64,000 nt of DNA from Anaerolineae bacterium (GTDB taxonomy: Bacteria; Chloroflexota; Anaerolineae; Aggregatilineales; Phototrophicaceae), in the NCBI GenBank assembly GCA_022842885.1, contig JALHOR010000002.1:1-64000 (forward strand). The letters run 5' to 3'. The position numbers were made by a program, and so were the translations under genes. A model generated the notes under the pieces. That model saw only the letters and a program-made list of their open reading frames with translations, did no database searches and had not been told where the DNA came from. Below are positions 26,439 through 49,031 of this stretch, in pieces; the stretch's first letter is position 1, and every line of letters starts with the position of its first letter.

Positions 26439-27491
26439 ATGATTTCTAGTTCGCGTATACCCTTAACCATCATTACGGGTTTTTTGGGAGCAGGTAAAAC
26501 AACCTTGCTTAATCATATTTTGCATGGTCAGCATGGTCAACGAATTGCGGTACTCGTCAACGATTTTGGTGCGGTTAATATTGATGCTCGCCTAATTGTT
26601 GGTGTTCAAGGGGAGATGGTAAGTTTAGCGAATGGTTGTATTTGCTGCACTATTCAAGGGGATTTGTTGGCAGCAGTAGAAAATCTATTGAACCAAGCTG
26701 AACCGCCCGAATATCTTATTGTGGAAACCAGTGGTGTCTCTGACCCGGCACAGATTGTTCTAACATTTGCGCGTTCAGCTTTACAGCATAAGGTTTGGAT
26801 TGATGGTATTTTAACGGTTGTAGATGCCGAGCAGTTTTTATCTTTATCAGGACAACAGAAAACATTGGCACAAGGGCAGGTGAAAGCGGGGGATATTATC
26901 ATCTTGAACAAAACTGATTTGATTCAAGAAGCCGAGTTGGAGACCATTCGGCACTGGATTCGTGGTTTTGTTCCACAAGCACGGATTTTGGAAACCTCAT
27001 TTGCCCAAGTACCATTAGAAATCATGACCAGTATCAATCTTGATAGAACAAAAAATTTGCCAAGTGGTAGTGACCTAGATATTCATGTTCATGCTGTGAA
27101 TGATGACCATCATGACCATGACCATAGTTTAGTGTTTAATACTTGGTATTGGCAGAGCAATAACCCTGTAAAATTGTCGGCACTGCGACAGGTTTTAGAA
27201 GAATTGCCTTTAACTATCTTTAGGGCAAAAGGGGTTGTTTATCTAAATGAGATGCCAGATAAAAAGAGTGTGGTGCAAGTCGTCGGTAAACGAATTAGCC
27301 TAACCTTGGGGGATGATTGGGGTGATGTTCAGCCATTTAATGAGATAGTTGTCATTGGTGAGGAAGGTAGTTTGGATACGATTGTTTTACAAACACAATT
27401 TGATAATTGTAAAGTTGGTGCTGTTGCCGCGCCTGAAGCAGCGCAATGGGTGGGAAATGTTCTGCGTTGGTTACGGGTGAAAAAGCCATGA
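26439..27491 (+). CDS. CobW/COG0523-family GTPase (metal chaperone)
   Basis: 350 residues. G-domain with Walker A GFLGAGKTTL (about 15-24), the metal-binding CxCC motif in NGCICCTIQGDL (about 70-75), switch VETSGVSDPAQI and the NKTD base-recognition motif. A His/Asp-rich stretch (DIHVHAVNDDHHDHDHS, about 215-231) precedes the CobW C-terminal domain. Family members load Zn or Co into target enzymes. The histidine stretch argues for a zinc-type member, but no Zur box or client gene is seen next to it, so the metal is inferred. A promoter candidate lies 40 bases upstream. Confidence 0.92.
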   Translation: MISSSRIPLTIITGFLGAGKTTLLNHILHGQHGQRIAVLVNDFGAVNIDARLIVGVQGEMVSLANGCICCTIQGDLLAAVENLLNQAEPPEYLIVETSGVSDPAQIVLTFARSALQHKVWIDGILTVVDAEQFLSLSGQQKTLAQGQVKAGDIIILNKTDLIQEAELETIRHWIRGFVPQARILETSFAQVPLEIMTSINLDRTKNLPSGSDLDIHVHAVNDDHHDHDHSLVFNTWYWQSNNPVKLSALRQVLEELPLTIFRAKGVVYLNEMPDKKSVVQVVGKRISLTLGDDWGDVQPFNEIVVIGEEGSLDTIVLQTQFDNCKVGAVAAPEAAQWVGNVLRWLRVKKP

Positions 27492-27642: not shown

Positions 27643-28947
27643 ATGGACACGAAAAAATCATCTCGACTCGCTGAATTCTACAAACGCTCCATTGAAGAGC
27701 GCCTCCATATTGTAGCTGATTGGTCTAATCTTTCAGTTGATGATATTGAGGTGCTGAAAAACATCGGTAGCTTTGATACCACCCAAGCCAATCATATGAT
27801 TGAGAATGTTATCAGCATTCATGGTTTGCCTTTAGGTATTGCTACAAACTTCCTTATTAATCACCATGATTACCTCATTCCAATGGTTATTGAAGAACCA
27901 TCAGTAGTAGCTGCGGTGAGCAACGCTGCAAAAATGTTTCGTGCTGGAGGTGGTTTTACAACCAGCAGTGATGACCCCGTTATGATTGGACAAATTCAGG
28001 TTTTGGATGTTTTGGATATTGAGACAGCTAAAAATAATATTTTAGCTGCTAAAGCTATGCTGCTGGCAGAAGCTGACAAAACAGGAGGTAGCATCGTCAA
28101 ACGGGGTGGCGGTGCAAGAGATATTGAAGTTCGGATTATTCCAAATACCTCTATCGGAACAATGCTAATTGTGCATTTGCTCTTCGATACTCGTGATGCG
28201 ATGGGAGCAAATGCTATCAACACCGCCGTTGAACATCTGGCACCCTTCATCGAAGAATTAACAGGTGGACGGGTTAATTTGCGTATCTTGAGCAATCTCA
28301 CCGATAAACGCAAAGCCCGCGCTGAAGGCATGATTCCAGCCAGTGAACTCACCAGAGGTAATATCACAGGTGAACAGGCTGTAAAATCCATTATCGAAGC
28401 TGGTATTTTCGCAGAAGTTGACCCTTATCGGGCTGTCACACACAACAAAGGCATTATGAACGGCATTGATGCTGTTGTGCTTGCCACAGGCAACGATTGG
28501 CGTGCTATTGAAGCTGGCGCTCACGCCTTCGCTGCGCGTGACGGGCAGTATCGAAGTTTAACGCGGTGGTGGCAAGATGATGATGGCAATCTGTGTGGTG
28601 CGATTGAATTGCCATTAGCCGTTGGGATTGTGGGCGGGGCAACGAGAGTACATCCCACCGCGCAAGTAGCAATGAAAATCTTGAATGTCCAATCGGCACA
28701 GGAATTAGCGGAGGTGATGGCAGCGGTTGGACTGGCACAAAATCTAGCAGCAATGCGAGCATTAGCAACGGAAGGTATTCAGCAAGGACATATGCGAATG
28801 CACGCTAAACAATTGGCAGTCGCTGCGGGGGCAGTGGGCGATCAAGTTGCCCAAATTGTGCAGCAGATGAGCGATGAAAAGAATATTCGTCTGGAACGAG
28901 CAAAAGAATTGGTACACCAACTCAATGGAGCAGACCATGACTCATAA
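27643..28947 (+). CDS. mvaA: hydroxymethylglutaryl-CoA reductase, class II
   Basis: 434 residues, the length of class II (bacterial) HMG-CoA reductase. Catalytic residues are all visible: Glu in [11 protein letters not shown] (about 84), [11 protein letters not shown], Lys in THNKGIMNG, Asp in [12 protein letters not shown], and His in [15 protein letters not shown] near the C-terminus. It reduces HMG-CoA to mevalonate. It opens a five-gene set with HMG-CoA synthase, thiolase homologue and DUF35 parts, a layout also found in archaea. The frame overlaps the next gene by 11 bases. The cofactor (NADH or NADPH) cannot be read. Confidence 0.95.
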
Positions 28948-30001
28948 TGGGTTATTGATGAAACCGGATAGGCAAGTGGGCATTGTCGGCTATGGTGCTT
29001 ATATTCCGCGCTATCGTTTGCCGGGGGCAGAAATTGCACGGGTGTGGACAGGTGGTTTAAACGAATCTCCTGTCAAAGAAAAAGCAGTGGCAGGAATAGA
29101 CGAAGATGTAGCAACAATGTCTATCGAAGCTGCCCGCAATGCCTTAAAACGAGCGCAAATTGACCCAACCGAAATCCGCGCTGTATGGGTGGGCAGCGAA
29201 AGTCACCCGTATGCTGTAAAACCCACTAGCACAATAGTGGCGGAAAGTATTGGAGCATCGGGGCATATTGAAGCTGCTGATTGGGAGTTTGCGTGCAAAG
29301 CAGGTACAGAAGCAGTACAAGCCTCCATTGGGCTGATTGGCAGCGGTATGGGTAAATATGCGCTGAGTATTGGTATGGACACAGCGCAAGGTAGACCGGG
29401 GGATGCTTTGGAATATACCGCCGCATCGGGCGGTGCGGCATTTTTGCTGGGTCCGGTTGAAGAAGCCTGTGCCGTTTATCAGGGCAGTTATAGTTTTGTC
29501 ACGGATACACCGGATTTTTGGCGGCGTGCCGGTGAAACATATCCGAGTCATGGCGACCGCTTCACAGGTGAACCGGCATATTTCAACCATACGCTGACGG
29601 CAGCAAAACAACTGATGGAACTAATGGGAGCAACTGCTAGTGATTATCGCTATGTGGTGCTGCATCAACCGAATGTGAAATTTCCTTCGCGGGCAGCACA
29701 ATTGCTGGGCTTTAAACCGGAACAAATTCAAACAGGATTATTGGCAAACGAGATTGGGAATGTGTATTCCGGTTCGTGCATGGTGGGATTAACAGCCGTG
29801 CTAGACGAGGCACAAGCGGGAGATCGTATCCTGATGGTGAGTTATGGCAGTGGTGCTGGCTCCGATGCATTTGATTTGGCGGTAACGGAAAAAATTGAAG
29901 CAAAACGGCATTTAGCCACTCGCACACAAGACTACATCCGACGGCGCACCCTCATTGATTATGGTTTATACACACGCTATCGCGGCAAACTGAAGGACTA
30001 A
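28937..30001 (+). CDS. archaeal-type hydroxymethylglutaryl-CoA synthase
   Basis: 354 residues from ATG 28937, chosen because GGAG lies 6 bases upstream; it overlaps mvaA by 11 bases. The nucleophile is intact: Cys120 in [11 protein letters not shown]. The catalytic His is in [14 protein letters not shown], and [12 protein letters not shown] and [12 protein letters not shown] are family motifs. It joins acetyl-CoA to acetoacetyl-CoA. In methanogens this enzyme is held in one complex with a thiolase and a DUF35 protein so that the thiolase equilibrium is pulled forward; the same three components follow one another here, though the thiolase is degenerate. Confidence 0.93.
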
Positions 30002-30006
30002 AAATC

Positions 30007-31158
30007 ATGCGAAAAACAGCCATTACAGGCATCGGGATGACGCCCGTCAGTGAACATTGGGGCATTAGTTTACGCGAATTGGCAGCAGAAGCGGGGCAAA
30101 AAGCCCTAGACGATGCTGGACTGCAAACGGTGGATGCTTTGTATGTGGCAAATGCCTATGGCAGCACATTCAATTATCAAACTCATCTTGGGGCATTGAT
30201 AGCTGATTACCTTGGGCTGAGTGGTATAGAAGCCTACAGCATTGAGGCAGCCGATGCATCCGGGGGGGCTGCGTTACGGACAGGGTATCTAGCAGTCGCT
30301 TCGGGTGCTGTGGAAACGGCATTGGTCATTGGTGTTGAAAAAGTAACGGATATTGTGGGGAGTGACCGAACACGAGCGCGAACAGTAAGCTTGGATGCTG
30401 ATTATGAAACGCCGCATGGGGCAACCTTGACGGCGATGGCAGCTTTGCTCATGCGGCGCTATATGCATGAATACGGACTAGAGTTGAGTGCCTTTGAAGG
30501 TTTCAGCATCAATGCTCATCAAAATGGACAGCGTAATGAATTAGCAATGTATCGGAACGCACTACGGGCGGGGGCATTTGGCAAGGCACCGATGATTTCT
30601 GAACCTGTGAGTTTATTTGATGGTGCGCCAGATGCCGATGGCGCAGCAGCGGTTGTGATTACATCGGCGGAGTGGGCAGCCGATACTTACCCAGCGCCAG
30701 TCGAAATTGCTGGGAGCAGCGTAGCAACCGATGCGTTCATGTTGCAAGAACGCATTGATCCTCTCTATCTTAAAGCTGTTGCCTTGAGTACACAAAAAGC
30801 ATTAGAACAAGCTGGAATAAGCAATCATGATGTTGATCTTTTTGAACCGCATGATGCCTTCACCATTTTGAGTGCTTTATCTTTAGAAGCGGCAGGTTTT
30901 GCTGAACGAGGTAAGGGATGGGAAATGACGGGTCAAATTGGATTGACAGGTCAACTCCCGATGACCACTTTTGGGGGTCTTAAGAGCCGCGGTAATCCAG
31001 CAGGTGCGAGTGGGATTTATCAAGCTGTCGAAGCCTGTTTGCAATTGCGGGGCAATGCTGGCAACAATCAAGTGGCAAATGCAAAAACTGCTCTCATCCA
31101 AAATTTAGGTGGGCTGGCAAGTACAGCCATAACCCATGTACTTGCGCCATACCAGTGA
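30007..31158 (+). CDS. thiolase-family protein lacking catalytic residues (archaeal acetyl-CoA acetyltransferase homologue)
   Basis: 383 residues. It aligns end to end with the archaeal acetyl-CoA C-acetyltransferase of the HMG-CoA synthase complex: GIGMTPVSEHWG, ALIADYLGLSG and a YLAVASG helix are kept. The nucleophile position is changed: EAADASGG where the family has EAACASGG (Asp83). HDCFT has become HDAFT (Ala284), and the C-terminal GHP motif has become SRGNPAGASG (Asn330). With three active-site motifs altered, normal thiolase chemistry is not expected. The frame is open and the gene sits 5 bases after HMG-CoA synthase, so it is likely maintained, perhaps as a scaffold. A sequencing fault is unlikely because three separate codons differ. 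Confidence 0.88.
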   Translation: MRKTAITGIGMTPVSEHWGISLRELAAEAGQKALDDAGLQTVDALYVANAYGSTFNYQTHLGALIADYLGLSGIEAYSIEAADASGGAALRTGYLAVASGAVETALVIGVEKVTDIVGSDRTRARTVSLDADYETPHGATLTAMAALLMRRYMHEYGLELSAFEGFSINAHQNGQRNELAMYRNALRAGAFGKAPMISEPVSLFDGAPDADGAAAVVITSAEWAADTYPAPVEIAGSSVATDAFMLQERIDPLYLKAVALSTQKALEQAGISNHDVDLFEPHDAFTILSALSLEAAGFAERGKGWEMTGQIGLTGQLPMTTFGGLKSRGNPAGASGIYQAVEACLQLRGNAGNNQVANAKTALIQNLGGLASTAITHVLAPYQ

Positions 31159-31289: not shown

Positions 31290-31454
31290 ATGCAAGTCGC
31301 ACGCTACTGGCGCATGAAAAACCACAACTATCGTTTGGAAGGCATTCGCTATACCAATGGTGCTATTCGCATCCAACCGCGTCCGGCAACACCCGAACAC
31401 ACCGATGTTGACATTGTAACGAACAAACGCGAAGCCGAAGTTGTAACAGCCTAG
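31290..31454 (+). CDS. N-terminal half of a split DUF35 protein (cysteine-free zinc-ribbon relic)
   Basis: 54 residues from ATG 31290 (AGGG upstream). It resembles the start of DUF35 proteins: VARYWRMKNHNYRLEG and IRIQPRPATPEH match the usual helix and the rubredoxin-like segment. The four zinc cysteines of that segment are gone; the peptide has no Cys at all. It ends at TAG, 18 bases before the next start, in the same frame as the OB-fold gene that follows. The 131 bases before it, from the thiolase stop, hold no other gene. Confidence 0.7.
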   Translation: MQVARYWRMKNHNYRLEGIRYTNGAIRIQPRPATPEHTDVDIVTNKREAEVVTA

Positions 31455-31472: not shown

Positions 31473-31769
31473 ATGACGATGCCACACATTTCATCCACAT
31501 ACGATACCTTTACCTTCGCCGGGACGGGCAAAATCTACAGCTATACAACACTCCAAGATGCCCCTGCGGGTTTTGATGAGCAAGCGCCCTATGTGCTGGC
31601 ACTGGTAAAGTTAGATGAAGGTCCCATGGTGACGGCACAAATCACAGACTTGGATGGTTCCTTGGCAATTGGTGATAAGGTAGAAATGGTCACGCGGAAG
31701 TTGATGACGGAAGGTAGCAAAGGGATGATTGTTTACGGGTATAAATTCCGCAAAATTGCCAACGACTAA
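31473..31769 (+). CDS. OB-fold half of a split DUF35 protein
   Basis: 98 residues. GKIYSYTTLQDAPAGF, LALVKLDEG and YGYKFRKI are the hallmarks of the DUF35 OB-fold. In methanogens the intact DUF35 protein binds CoA intermediates and holds thiolase and HMG-CoA synthase together. Here the OB-fold is its own gene with GGAG 9 bases upstream. Read through the TAG at 31452-31454 the two parts would make about 159 residues, close to a normal DUF35 protein. It closes the mevalonate operon and is followed by a strong terminator. Confidence 0.8.
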   Translation: MTMPHISSTYDTFTFAGTGKIYSYTTLQDAPAGFDEQAPYVLALVKLDEGPMVTAQITDLDGSLAIGDKVEMVTRKLMTEGSKGMIVYGYKFRKIAND

Positions 31770-44571: not shown

Positions 44572-45341
44572 TTCGCATTTCTATTCTTATCTTGATTTGT
44601 ATCATTCTTATAATATGGGCAGCCCCCTTGCTGATACGTTTTGACCCCATGCAAACGGACGCCAGTAACACGCTTTTAGCGCCTTCGCCTAAGCATTTAC
44701 TAGGCACAGATTATTTAGGGCGCGATGTGTTGAGCCGTGTTTTATATGGTGGACAGCGCACTTTGATTATCACATCATTGGCGGCACTGGCTGGGTTAAT
44801 CATAGGCGTGGGTATTGGGTTAATAGTCGGCATCAGTTCGCCATTGATAGCGGCGCTTTTGATGGGGGTTTTAAACGCATTATTGGCATTTCCGCCGTTA
44901 GTGCTGGCATTGGTCACGTTGACACTCTTAGGACAAAGTGATGCTGCGTTGGTTTTGGCGGTGGGGTTGGCTCAAACCGCCAGCGTAGCACAAGTCATGC
45001 GTGCGGGGGTGCAAACAATTCTTATTCAAGATTATGTGTTGGCAGCAAGAGCGCAAGGTGCGACTGCGTGGCGCATCATTTACGCCCATATTTTGCCGGG
45101 TATTCAATCAACGGTGTTGGTCTATGGGGTGATTGTGTTCGGTTATTGCTTGTTCAATAGTGCCGCATTAAGTTTGTTAGGGCTGGGGAGCGCACCGGGG
45201 ATACCCGATTGGGGGGTGATGCTGGCAGAAGGGCGCAATTCGTTTCGGGCAGCCCCTTGGGTAGCCTTCGCGCCGGGGATGCTGATTACAATCGTGATTT
45301 TGTGTTTGAATACCCTGGTAGATAATCTCAATCAGTGTTAG
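44568..45341 (+). CDS. ABC transporter permease, DppC/OppC type
   Basis: 257 residues from a GTG start overlapping the previous stop. Shows HLLGTDYLGRDVLSRVLYGGQRT, the DppC signature, the EAA loop in VLAARAQGATAWRIIYAHILP and a C-terminal PDWGVMLAEGRN segment. It is a little short (normally about 280-300), lacking most of the cytoplasmic N-terminus. Its stop overlaps that of the convergent isopentenyl phosphate kinase gene by 4 bases, with no terminator between them. The DppD/DppF ATPases must come from elsewhere. Confidence 0.9.
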   Translation: MIRISILILICIILIIWAAPLLIRFDPMQTDASNTLLAPSPKHLLGTDYLGRDVLSRVLYGGQRTLIITSLAALAGLIIGVGIGLIVGISSPLIAALLMGVLNALLAFPPLVLALVTLTLLGQSDAALVLAVGLAQTASVAQVMRAGVQTILIQDYVLAARAQGATAWRIIYAHILPGIQSTVLVYGVIVFGYCLFNSAALSLLGLGSAPGIPDWGVMLAEGRNSFRAAPWVAFAPGMLITIVILCLNTLVDNLNQC

Positions 45342-46123
45342 CGCCCAATGCGTGTTCCTAAAATTGGCTGATGCAATAATGCGGATTGGAGTAAACCGGG
45401 CGTTTTGCCATTAAAAATCAAAATACTTAAAGCCGATTTTGCCTGCGTTAATGCCAACATATCCTCCACTTTAGTGAGCATCCCCCCCGTAACATCTACC
45501 CCCGCTGAACCACCCAAAGCAGGTTTTATCGCTTCAAAATTAGCAGGAGTGATGTTTGGTATCACTTGCTGTTGCAAATCATAGACGCCATCTACTTCGC
45601 CCAATAGCAAAATACGACTCACAGGCAAATGTTCAACGAGATAAGTAAAAATGGTTTCCGTTGAGATAATCGTGCCGCCGCGCACCGCATCAAATGCCAC
45701 ATCGCCATACACTAAGGGGATAAGCTGTCGCGCCAAGGCGCTTTCGATGTTGCCCAATGCCATCTGCGTAATATTACCATCCTGCGCGATTGCTGATGCT
45801 GATGGTTGCACCCGAAATATTGGGAGTCCTGCCGCGTGCAGCACTTTTGCCACAAGATAATTGAGTTCAGCAGCGATGGTGGCGACACTGGCAAAACCGC
45901 GCCATTGTTCTGGTGTTTGCACACCTGCCATTGTGTTATGTTGCTTCGCCTCAAAATGCCCAAAAGACCCGCTGCCATGCCCAATAATCAGCGGCATAGT
46001 AGGTTGCTGGGCGATAGCCCCCGCAATCTCTTGGGCGATACGCTGCATCGCATCTTCGCGGAAACTGGCACGAATCGTCTTGTCGGTGATGAGTGAACCG
46101 CCCAATTTGACCAGCGTAATCAT
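45338..46123 (-). CDS. isopentenyl phosphate kinase
   Basis: 261 residues of the amino-acid-kinase fold. LVKLGGSLITDK opens the domain; IIGHGSGSFGHF (about 46-57) includes the His that marks isopentenyl phosphate kinases; VYGDVAFD and DVTGGMLTKVEDML are further family motifs. It phosphorylates isopentenyl phosphate to IPP, the last step of the alternative mevalonate route known in archaea and in Roseiflexus. Its start overlaps the mevalonate kinase stop as ATGA. Together with the decarboxylase at 48060 it indicates that route here. Confidence 0.93.
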   Translation of the reverse strand: MITLVKLGGSLITDKTIRASFREDAMQRIAQEIAGAIAQQPTMPLIIGHGSGSFGHFEAKQHNTMAGVQTPEQWRGFASVATIAAELNYLVAKVLHAAGLPIFRVQPSASAIAQDGNITQMALGNIESALARQLIPLVYGDVAFDAVRGGTIISTETIFTYLVEHLPVSRILLLGEVDGVYDLQQQVIPNITPANFEAIKPALGGSAGVDVTGGMLTKVEDMLALTQAKSALSILIFNGKTPGLLQSALLHQPILGTRIGR

Positions 46124-47046
46124 GCCTTGTTCGCTCCCATCAAACTTGTTTCATAAACTCGAACTGCACCCGCCGCCAATAGTGCCGTTTTTACAGTGGG
46201 TAACGTCTCCGGCGTGACCAGCGCCAGCATATTGCCGCCACGCCCACCGCCGGATAATTTTGCCCCTAATGCGCCGGCTTGTAGGGCGGCGTTCACCAAG
46301 TTATCGAGTTCGGGTGATGATACCGTCAGTTGTTGCAAATACTGGTGATTTTGTGTCAACAATGCGCCAATGGTTTCAGCATTGCCGGTTTGTAACTGCT
46401 GTTGAATGTCGCACACTAGCGCCCCAATAGCATCCAAAATCGGCTGAATTTTTTCTGGGTCGTGTTCGTATAAGCGGCGCACATCCCCGACTGAAATTTT
46501 GGTGGGGGCGGGTATGCCTGTATCCGCAATGAGAAAATGCAGCGGTGTATTGATACTGATAAACTCCACCGCTTGATTCCGTACAAAATAAATCGGACGT
46601 TCATACACAATCACGGTATTATCAATGCCGCTTGGTGTGCCGTGATGCATTTTTTCTACTTCATAAACCAGTTGATTAATCGTTTCAACAGGCAATGTTT
46701 TTCCAGCGATTTGGCACAAACAACGGGCAACTGCCGCTGAGACTGCTGCACCACTGCCTAAGCCGCTGGCAACCGGAATAGTAGATGTAATATGCATTTC
46801 AACCGGGGGTGGTGCAATATGTAGAGCATCCAGCGTCAAACGAGCAATTTGAGTGATAGCAGCATCAGCTGCCAAATCTAGGATTTGCAGCCCGGTATCT
46901 GCCAGCGTGAACATGAGTTGTTCGGCAGGTTTGGCGCTGACCATCACTCGTAAATCGCTGACAGGCACGGCAATCGCGGGTTGCCCATAAACGACAGCGT
47001 GTTCGCCACACAAAATCATTTTTGCACAGGCACTCGCGGTTATCAT
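46120..47046 (-). CDS. mvk: mevalonate kinase
   Basis: 308 residues, GHMP kinase fold. Motif 1 CGEHAVVYGQPA (about 13-24), the ATP loop PVASGLGSGAAVSAA (about 90-104), the catalytic-Asp motif HGTPSGIDNT and motif 3 KLSGGGRGGNM are all present, and are those of mevalonate rather than phosphomevalonate kinase. It converts mevalonate to mevalonate 5-phosphate. It overlaps both neighbours by 4 bases (ATGA), which gives strict coupling with the UbiA-type and IPK genes. Confidence 0.94.
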   Translation of the reverse strand: MITASACAKMILCGEHAVVYGQPAIAVPVSDLRVMVSAKPAEQLMFTLADTGLQILDLAADAAITQIARLTLDALHIAPPPVEMHITSTIPVASGLGSGAAVSAAVARCLCQIAGKTLPVETINQLVYEVEKMHHGTPSGIDNTVIVYERPIYFVRNQAVEFISINTPLHFLIADTGIPAPTKISVGDVRRLYEHDPEKIQPILDAIGALVCDIQQQLQTGNAETIGALLTQNHQYLQQLTVSSPELDNLVNAALQAGALGAKLSGGGRGGNMLALVTPETLPTVKTALLAAGAVRVYETSLMGANKA

Positions 47047-48059: not shown

Positions 48060-49031
48060 TTGAAAACCGCGACTGCACGAGCGCATCCCAACATCGCATT
48101 TATTAAATATTGGGGCAACCAAGATGATGTCTTGCGTTTGCCTGCAAATTCGTCACTCAGCATGAACCTTGATGGCTTATACACCCAAACCACCGTGATT
48201 CCTGATGAAACATTGTTTTCCGATGTATTGGTGCTTAACGGTGAAATTGCCAGCGGCAAATCGTTAGAGCGCGTCGTGACTCATCTGAATATGCTGCGGC
48301 AGCGATGCGAAATAGTGACGCATGTCCGCGTTGAATCTGCTAATAATTTTCCAACAGGCACGGGCATCGCGTCATCAGCATCAGCATTTGCGGCGCTGAC
48401 GGTGGCAACCGCCGCTGTATTTGAAATATCCATGACGGAACGCGAATTAACAACATTGGCGCGGCGTGGGTCAGGGTCAGCATCGCGCTCTGTGCCAACC
48501 GGGTTTGTGGAATGGCACGCCGCTGATACGCACGCCGACTCGTTTGCCGAAAGCATTGCTGCGCCGGAGTACTGGAATTTGGTAGATGTAGTTGCTATTG
48601 TGAGTGACCAGCATAAAGCTACCGGGTCACAAGAAGGGCATACTACCGCTGCGACCAGCGACTTGCAAATTGCACGAGTCAATGGCGCAGCAGATAGATT
48701 AATGCGCTGCAAACAGGCATTTTTGGCGCGTGATTTTGCCACTTTTGCCGAAGTAGTCGAACTTGATAGTAATTTGATGCATGCCGTCATGATGACGAGT
48801 CGCCCACCATTATTTTATTGGCTGCCGACCACGTTAGATATTATGCAGCGCGTCCGTGCATGGCGCTCACAAGGGCTGAATGTATGTTATACCTTGGATG
48901 CCGGACCCAATGTGCATTGTTTGTGTACGGCTGATGCTGCCCCCGAAATTCAACGTCAATTACAACAAGTTGCGGGTGTGATGGACATCAAAATAGCAAC
49001 ACCGGGCGGTGCGGCTGTTGTTATTGTGTAA
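48060..49031 (+). CDS. mevalonate 5-phosphate decarboxylase-type enzyme (MDD family)
   Basis: 323 residues from a TTG start. GHMP-fold decarboxylase: ANIAF-like start (HPNIAFIKYWGN), LPANSSLSMNL, the phosphate loop NNFPTGTGIASSASAFAA, RRGSGSASRSV and the catalytic Asp in LDAGPNVH. The Lys after KYWG in classical diphosphomevalonate decarboxylases is Asn20 here. Because an isopentenyl phosphate kinase is encoded next door and no phosphomevalonate kinase is seen, the likely substrate is mevalonate 5-phosphate, giving isopentenyl phosphate; a diphosphate substrate remains possible. It is divergent from the ubiA-mvk-ipk operon. Confidence 0.9.
   Translation: MKTATARAHPNIAFIKYWGNQDDVLRLPANSSLSMNLDGLYTQTTVIPDETLFSDVLVLNGEIASGKSLERVVTHLNMLRQRCEIVTHVRVESANNFPTGTGIASSASAFAALTVATAAVFEISMTERELTTLARRGSGSASRSVPTGFVEWHAADTHADSFAESIAAPEYWNLVDVVAIVSDQHKATGSQEGHTTAATSDLQIARVNGAADRLMRCKQAFLARDFATFAEVVELDSNLMHAVMMTSRPPLFYWLPTTLDIMQRVRAWRSQGLNVCYTLDAGPNVHCLCTADAAPEIQRQLQQVAGVMDIKIATPGGAAVVIV

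Follow-up and report, generated by a model that had tools for sequence, protein, structure and literature searches.

The window (the whole 64,000-nucleotide stretch of Anaerolineae DNA analyzed here) carries a mevalonate operon in which genes for HMG-CoA reductase, HMG-CoA synthase (HMGS), a thiolase homologue and a two-piece DUF35 protein follow one another on the forward strand, and three further genes of the pathway lie downstream. The features are:

27643–28947 (+): HMG-CoA reductase (class II / TIGR00532 type), the operon's first gene, at the same position in related loci
28967–30001 (+): archaeal-type HMGS with Glu78, Cys110 and His233 intact; nearest solved chain 6esq_I (E 5.9e-128)
30007–31158 (+): archaeal-type thiolase homologue (putative pseudo-thiolase) whose nucleophilic Cys is replaced by Asp83 and whose GHP His is replaced by Asn330; AlphaFold2 model built
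30253–30255 (+): codon 83, Asp replacing the nucleophilic Cys (translation, alignment)
30994–30996 (+): codon 330, Asn replacing the GHP His (translation, alignment)
31290–31454 (+): N-terminal DUF35 piece, 54 aa, comprising the helix/docking segment and the former zinc ribbon; 36 loci have a homologous ORF in the corresponding position
31473–31769 (+): OB-fold-only DUF35 protein (PF01796), 98 aa; the genome's sole PF01796 match
45338–46123 (−): isopentenyl phosphate kinase (NF040647), same pathway
46120–47046 (−): mevalonate kinase (TIGR00549), same pathway
48060–49031 (+): (di)phosphomevalonate decarboxylase family member (TIGR01240 / near NF040704), same pathway

The listed ORF of HMGS opens at 28874, and the family match runs from about 28970. 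Directly upstream of the operon lies a CobW/ZigA-type metallochaperone GTPase (26439–27491, +).

The thiolase ORF encodes 383 amino acids with no internal stop and begins 5 nucleotides after the HMGS stop (30001), as the preliminary description of this DNA had stated. That description listed three altered active-site motifs, and alignment to the thiolases of Pyrococcus furiosus (7yvy) and Methanothermococcus thermolithotrophicus (6esq) bears out two of them: the nucleophile motif reads EAADASGG (Asp83) instead of EAACASGG, and the GHP motif reads GNP (Asn330). The third, HDAFT for HDCFT, is rejected as a lost motif; Ala284 is also found in 96% of the Cys-containing relatives and in 7yvy and is thus no lineage-specific loss, and within our set Cys at this position is confined to the methanogen sequence. 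The closest solved sequence, P. furiosus PFC_04095 (7yvy, about 46% identity), shares HDAFT with the window thiolase but retains both the Cys and the GHP His. As judged by the best family model, NF004720, which matches over its full length with 379.7 bits (E 1.3e-113; cut-off 420), the protein is homologous to the archaeal-type family (PRK06064 / AcCoTHIOL_METTL) yet falls below the curated cut-off, and it lacks both the Cys of EAACASG and the GHP His of that family.

Relatives were collected by a scan of GTDB contigs (80 sequences) and supplemented from whole-genome searches and fetched regions. In the resulting tree of 118 rows, the Cys-less thiolases form a single clade of 79 rows (SH-aLRT 99); two Cys-less rows fall outside it (L058, L131), and 37 rows carry the Cys–His pair. 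The clade is drawn from Anaerolineae and allied Chloroflexota and contains a Promineifilum (L053). Within the clade, position 83 is (weighted) Asp in 62%, Glu in 27% and Gly in 8%, with Gln and Asn as minor variants; Asn occupies position 330 in 86%. The automatic annotation "acetyl-CoA acetyltransferase" is probably wrong across this whole bacterial clade.

No aligned Cys-less copy contains an internal stop, and dN/dS is 0.03–0.11 in most closest pairs, with similar values in Cys-containing relatives. A single 79-row clade combined with low dN/dS argues for one old, retained change instead of decay, and the loss of Cys appears to be one ancient event kept under purifying selection. Chance, a single-genome peculiarity or an assembly error was rejected because the Cys-less state is common to 79 members. 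Neutral decay beside Cys-keeping relatives, which the preliminary description had named as the pattern that would speak against its reading, was not found, and pseudogene decay was rejected on the same stop and dN/dS evidence. A gene drifting toward loss would account for a thiolase that evolves faster than its HMGS partner (see below), but it is scarcely credible for a roughly class-level clade of uninterrupted frames with low dN/dS and conserved new residues.

An AlphaFold2 model of the thiolase (40 homologues; pLDDT 93.7) superposes best on the complex-bound thiolase chains 6et9_C and 6esq_A (TM 0.96, rmsd 1.4 Å). The thiolase fold is thus predicted to be intact, and the nearness of the model geometry to 6et9/6esq would count in favor of a complex subunit. 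The altered pocket is itself conserved in the Cys-less clade: Asp/Glu83 (89%), Asn330, Ala207 (100%), Ala145, Phe322, His282 (96%). Ala207 lies in the SPxxDG loop and is Ser in Cys relatives; the GGLKxRG loop and His282 are retained. Such conservation would not be required by a simple loss of function, and counts against a purely passive scaffold. It is also the reason to consider that the former thiolase pocket has acquired a new, non-covalent chemistry in which Asp/Glu83, His282 and Asn330 act on a CoA thioester (e.g. by decarboxylation, aldol/retro-aldol reaction or hydrolysis), an explanation that we regard as unlikely. The residue constellation is novel and conserved across a class-wide clade, and Asp, Glu, Asn and Gln could each position a carbonyl group in the oxyanion hole, the role played by Gln in the decarboxylating KSQ domains. 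There are also precedents for thiolase folds with other chemistry, with or without DUF35, in Ltp2, Sal and perhaps the trypanosomal SLP (TbSLP): Sal has Gly at the Cys place and is an aldolase, and TbSLP decarboxylates malonyl-CoA at 0.005 per s (PMC12329534). Ltp2–ChsH2(DUF35), Sal–Shy(DUF35) and TbSLP resemble the window protein in having a thiolase fold with the Cys repurposed or missing and, in the first two, a DUF35 partner, but they differ in their Tyr-based YDHF/YDCY motifs, their pathways and the lack of an HMGS partner (PMC12329534). The window motif is HDxF (HDAF) and lacks the aldolase Tyr. Further arguments against new chemistry are that residue 83 varies across the clade (D/E/G/Q/N), that the gene still adjoins HMGS and has not moved to another neighborhood, and that the thiolase has nearly twice the evolutionary rate of HMGS.

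That the protein is still a thiolase, by means of another nucleophile or an aspartyl-thioester/anhydride intermediate, would agree with the retained fold, His282, GGLKxRG loop and operon position. We nevertheless consider this highly improbable: the His of the Cys–His pair is gone as well, the SPxxDG Ser is Ala throughout the clade, ordinary thiolases are available in the genomes, and replacement of Cys by Ala or Ser in the related PhlC abolished activity (PMC6392133).

The partner enzyme, in contrast, is intact. The HMGS cysteine that the preliminary description had reported as preserved is accompanied by the other catalytic residues, and Glu78, Cys110 and His233 are all present in 73/73 Cys-less operons and 18/18 Cys operons. 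Of 82 Cys-less thiolase copies, 73 have HMGS directly upstream, and several of the exceptions are short or contig-cut loci; in the window the thiolase, HMGS and DUF35 genes are adjacent. The thiolase/HMGS rate ratio is 1.8–1.9 in the Cys-less clade versus 1.04–1.06 in Cys operons; the contrast holds in every HMGS identity band (1.56–1.97 versus 0.97–1.12), and summed branch lengths likewise show the faster thiolase in the Cys-less clade. Taken together, these rates indicate that constraint is relaxed on one subunit only, the thiolase.

The third subunit has also changed, a point absent from the preliminary description. DUF35 is a single polypeptide, combining a Cys4 zinc ribbon with an OB fold, in Cys operons as well as in many of the Cys-less ones. 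The window and its family do not have this form; their DUF35 is split into a Cys-free piece and an OB-only protein. The 54-residue piece begins MQVARYWRMKNHNYRLEG, contains no cysteine and has no match in Pfam or NCBIfam; its counterparts in the 36 loci measure 53–62 aa and are conserved at the protein level. Other arrangements include a split DUF35 that retains the zinc cysteines (L111, L122 and L143), a one-piece DUF35 without cysteines (L114) and, in some families, a DUF35 located elsewhere in the genome. In L037 (9314–9964) and L145, a short N-terminal DUF35 gene lies directly before a full-length one, an arrangement that suggests that the split may have arisen through duplication and complementary loss. 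The idea that another zinc DUF35, encoded at a different locus, compensates for the split one was rejected: the genome's single PF01796 match leaves no further DUF35 of this family to fill in.

The DUF35 structures known by 2019 were all zinc-binding (PMC6996347). PhlB packs its N-terminal tail, as far as Arg28, into buried contacts with both partner enzymes (PMC6392133), and for this reason the retained DUF35 segment counts in favor of a scaffold. The split genes keep the docking segment and drop the zinc, as might be expected if a thiolase-facing function was lost and assembly was retained. The remodeling of the bridging DUF35, and its location elsewhere in the genome in some families, could alternatively mean that the thiolase homologue has left the HMGS complex and acts as a stand-alone CoA-thioester sensor or pathway regulator. 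We give this little credence, as adjacency to HMGS is largely kept and the loci still encode the DUF35 segment by which both partners are bound in PhlABC.

What remains is the source of acetoacetyl-CoA. The archaeal-type mevalonate set, i.e. mevalonate kinase, a phosphomevalonate-type decarboxylase and isopentenyl phosphate kinase, is encoded entirely within the window; the family scores of the decarboxylase are compatible with either a mono- or a diphosphate substrate. An archaeal-type mevalonate pathway in some Chloroflexota has been published (PMC3857490; PMC13001223). DXR is absent from all 13 genomes tried, including that of the window, and mevalonate is therefore very probably, or at least likely, the sole isoprenoid route as read from gene content; with the mevalonate genes present and no DXR, HMGS must work. 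The genome encodes three conventional thiolases whose Cys and GHP motifs are intact; one of them leaves its contig before the last motif and one is of the biosynthetic PhaA/AtoB kind, so that the search for a second thiolase proposed at the outset had a positive outcome. An acetoacetyl-CoA synthetase was rejected as the source, as no match in the genome exceeded the cut-off. Scored as present when above the TIGR01930 cut-off, a conventional thiolase occurs in 38/40 genomes with the Cys-less operon thiolase versus 11/20 with the Cys form (Fisher 0.0004, uncorrected for kinship), a contrast that is suggestive and statistically weak because it reflects essentially one loss event. Of the two exceptions among the 40 genomes, G005 has a thiolase fragment only, and G029 has no conventional thiolase and a separate Cys-type paralogue without adjoining HMGS; G029 counts against supply by an ordinary thiolase.

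In the methanogen complex the CoA site is formed at the interface of all three proteins (PMC6392133), and a thiolase subunit could therefore aid substrate docking to HMGS without any chemistry of its own. Based on these observations, we propose, as the probable though by no means assured explanation, that the pseudo-thiolase is retained as a structural or CoA-docking subunit of HMGS, with acetoacetyl-CoA coming from an ordinary thiolase. The preliminary description had offered such a scaffold as one possibility, and it gains support from the single ancient loss under purifying selection, the faster evolution relative to an intact HMGS and the three conventional Cys-thiolases. Covalent thiolase chemistry would have been lost once, in the ancestor of a large Anaerolineae-centered clade, and the dead thiolase kept as a structural, probably CoA-thioester-docking subunit for a still active HMGS. 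The subunits would still assemble, the pseudo-thiolase would bind CoA, and acetoacetyl-CoA would be supplied by ordinary thiolases elsewhere, here most likely by the PhaA/AtoB-like enzyme on contig 44. In a later step, the bridging DUF35 would have come apart into two proteins, a short docking peptide devoid of Cys and an OB domain. A plausible advantage would be that a dead site could not cleave bound acetoacetyl-CoA to acetyl-CoA. A broader version, possible but rather doubtful, is that the entry complex of the mevalonate pathway has been remodeled class-wide, such that, for HMGS, a non-thiolytic pocket (acid 83, Asn330, Ala207, Phe322) either holds acetoacetyl-CoA or performs a new CoA-thioester reaction, the DUF35 being zinc-free and in two pieces.

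The textbook example of acetoacetyl-CoA channelling is the archaeal thiolase/HMGS complex; a clade with an apparently dead thiolase and an intact HMGS amounts to a natural experiment in which the structural contribution of the thiolase to the channel is separated from its catalytic one. The loci form an evolutionary series: (i) Cys thiolase with one-piece zinc DUF35; (ii) Cys-less thiolase with the same; (iii) Cys-less thiolase with split DUF35 that has its zinc cysteines; and (iv) Cys-less thiolase with split DUF35 without cysteines. Each step is open to purification and testing.

The archaeal complex (Vogeli et al. 2018) has thiolase and HMGS chains homologous to those encoded in the window, and both systems show gene adjacency and an OB-fold DUF35; its thiolase chain fits the window model at TM 0.96; the window differs in a thiolase without Cys and His and in a split DUF35 whose zinc cysteines are gone. 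The Friedel-Crafts acylase PhlABC (5m3k) is likewise a three-part thiolase/HMGS-like/DUF35 assembly with one dead catalytic subunit, but as a mirror image: it is the HMGS-like PhlA that has lost its Cys and Glu, and the thiolase-like PhlC is the active enzyme (PMC6392133). Dead subunits in the superfamily (PhlA) and Cys-less thiolase folds are thus already known. A literature search of partial coverage yielded no account of a mevalonate operon with a clade-wide dead thiolase, of an inactive thiolase within an HMGS complex or of a split, zinc-free DUF35.

Sulfolobus tokodaii ST0096 (4yzo) is also an archaeal-type thiolase without Cys, but it has Ser at the Cys place by alignment, keeps the His and is about 29% identical to the window thiolase; it represents an independent Cys loss in an archaeal thiolase-like protein. 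In L131 (G032:C44), a distant thiolase homologue has Pro at the Cys place (IENGPASGG) and lies near a DUF35-like zinc ribbon + OB protein. A second, Cys-containing archaeal-type thiolase paralogue without nearby HMGS occurs in several same-family genomes (L059, L117, L118, L119, L125 and L128). Finally, peatland Myxococcales MAGs (L074, L077 and L079) carry a Chloroflexota-like HMGS–thiolase(Cys)–DUF35 operon nested among Anaerolineae sequences, possibly as a result of horizontal transfer or of a binning error.
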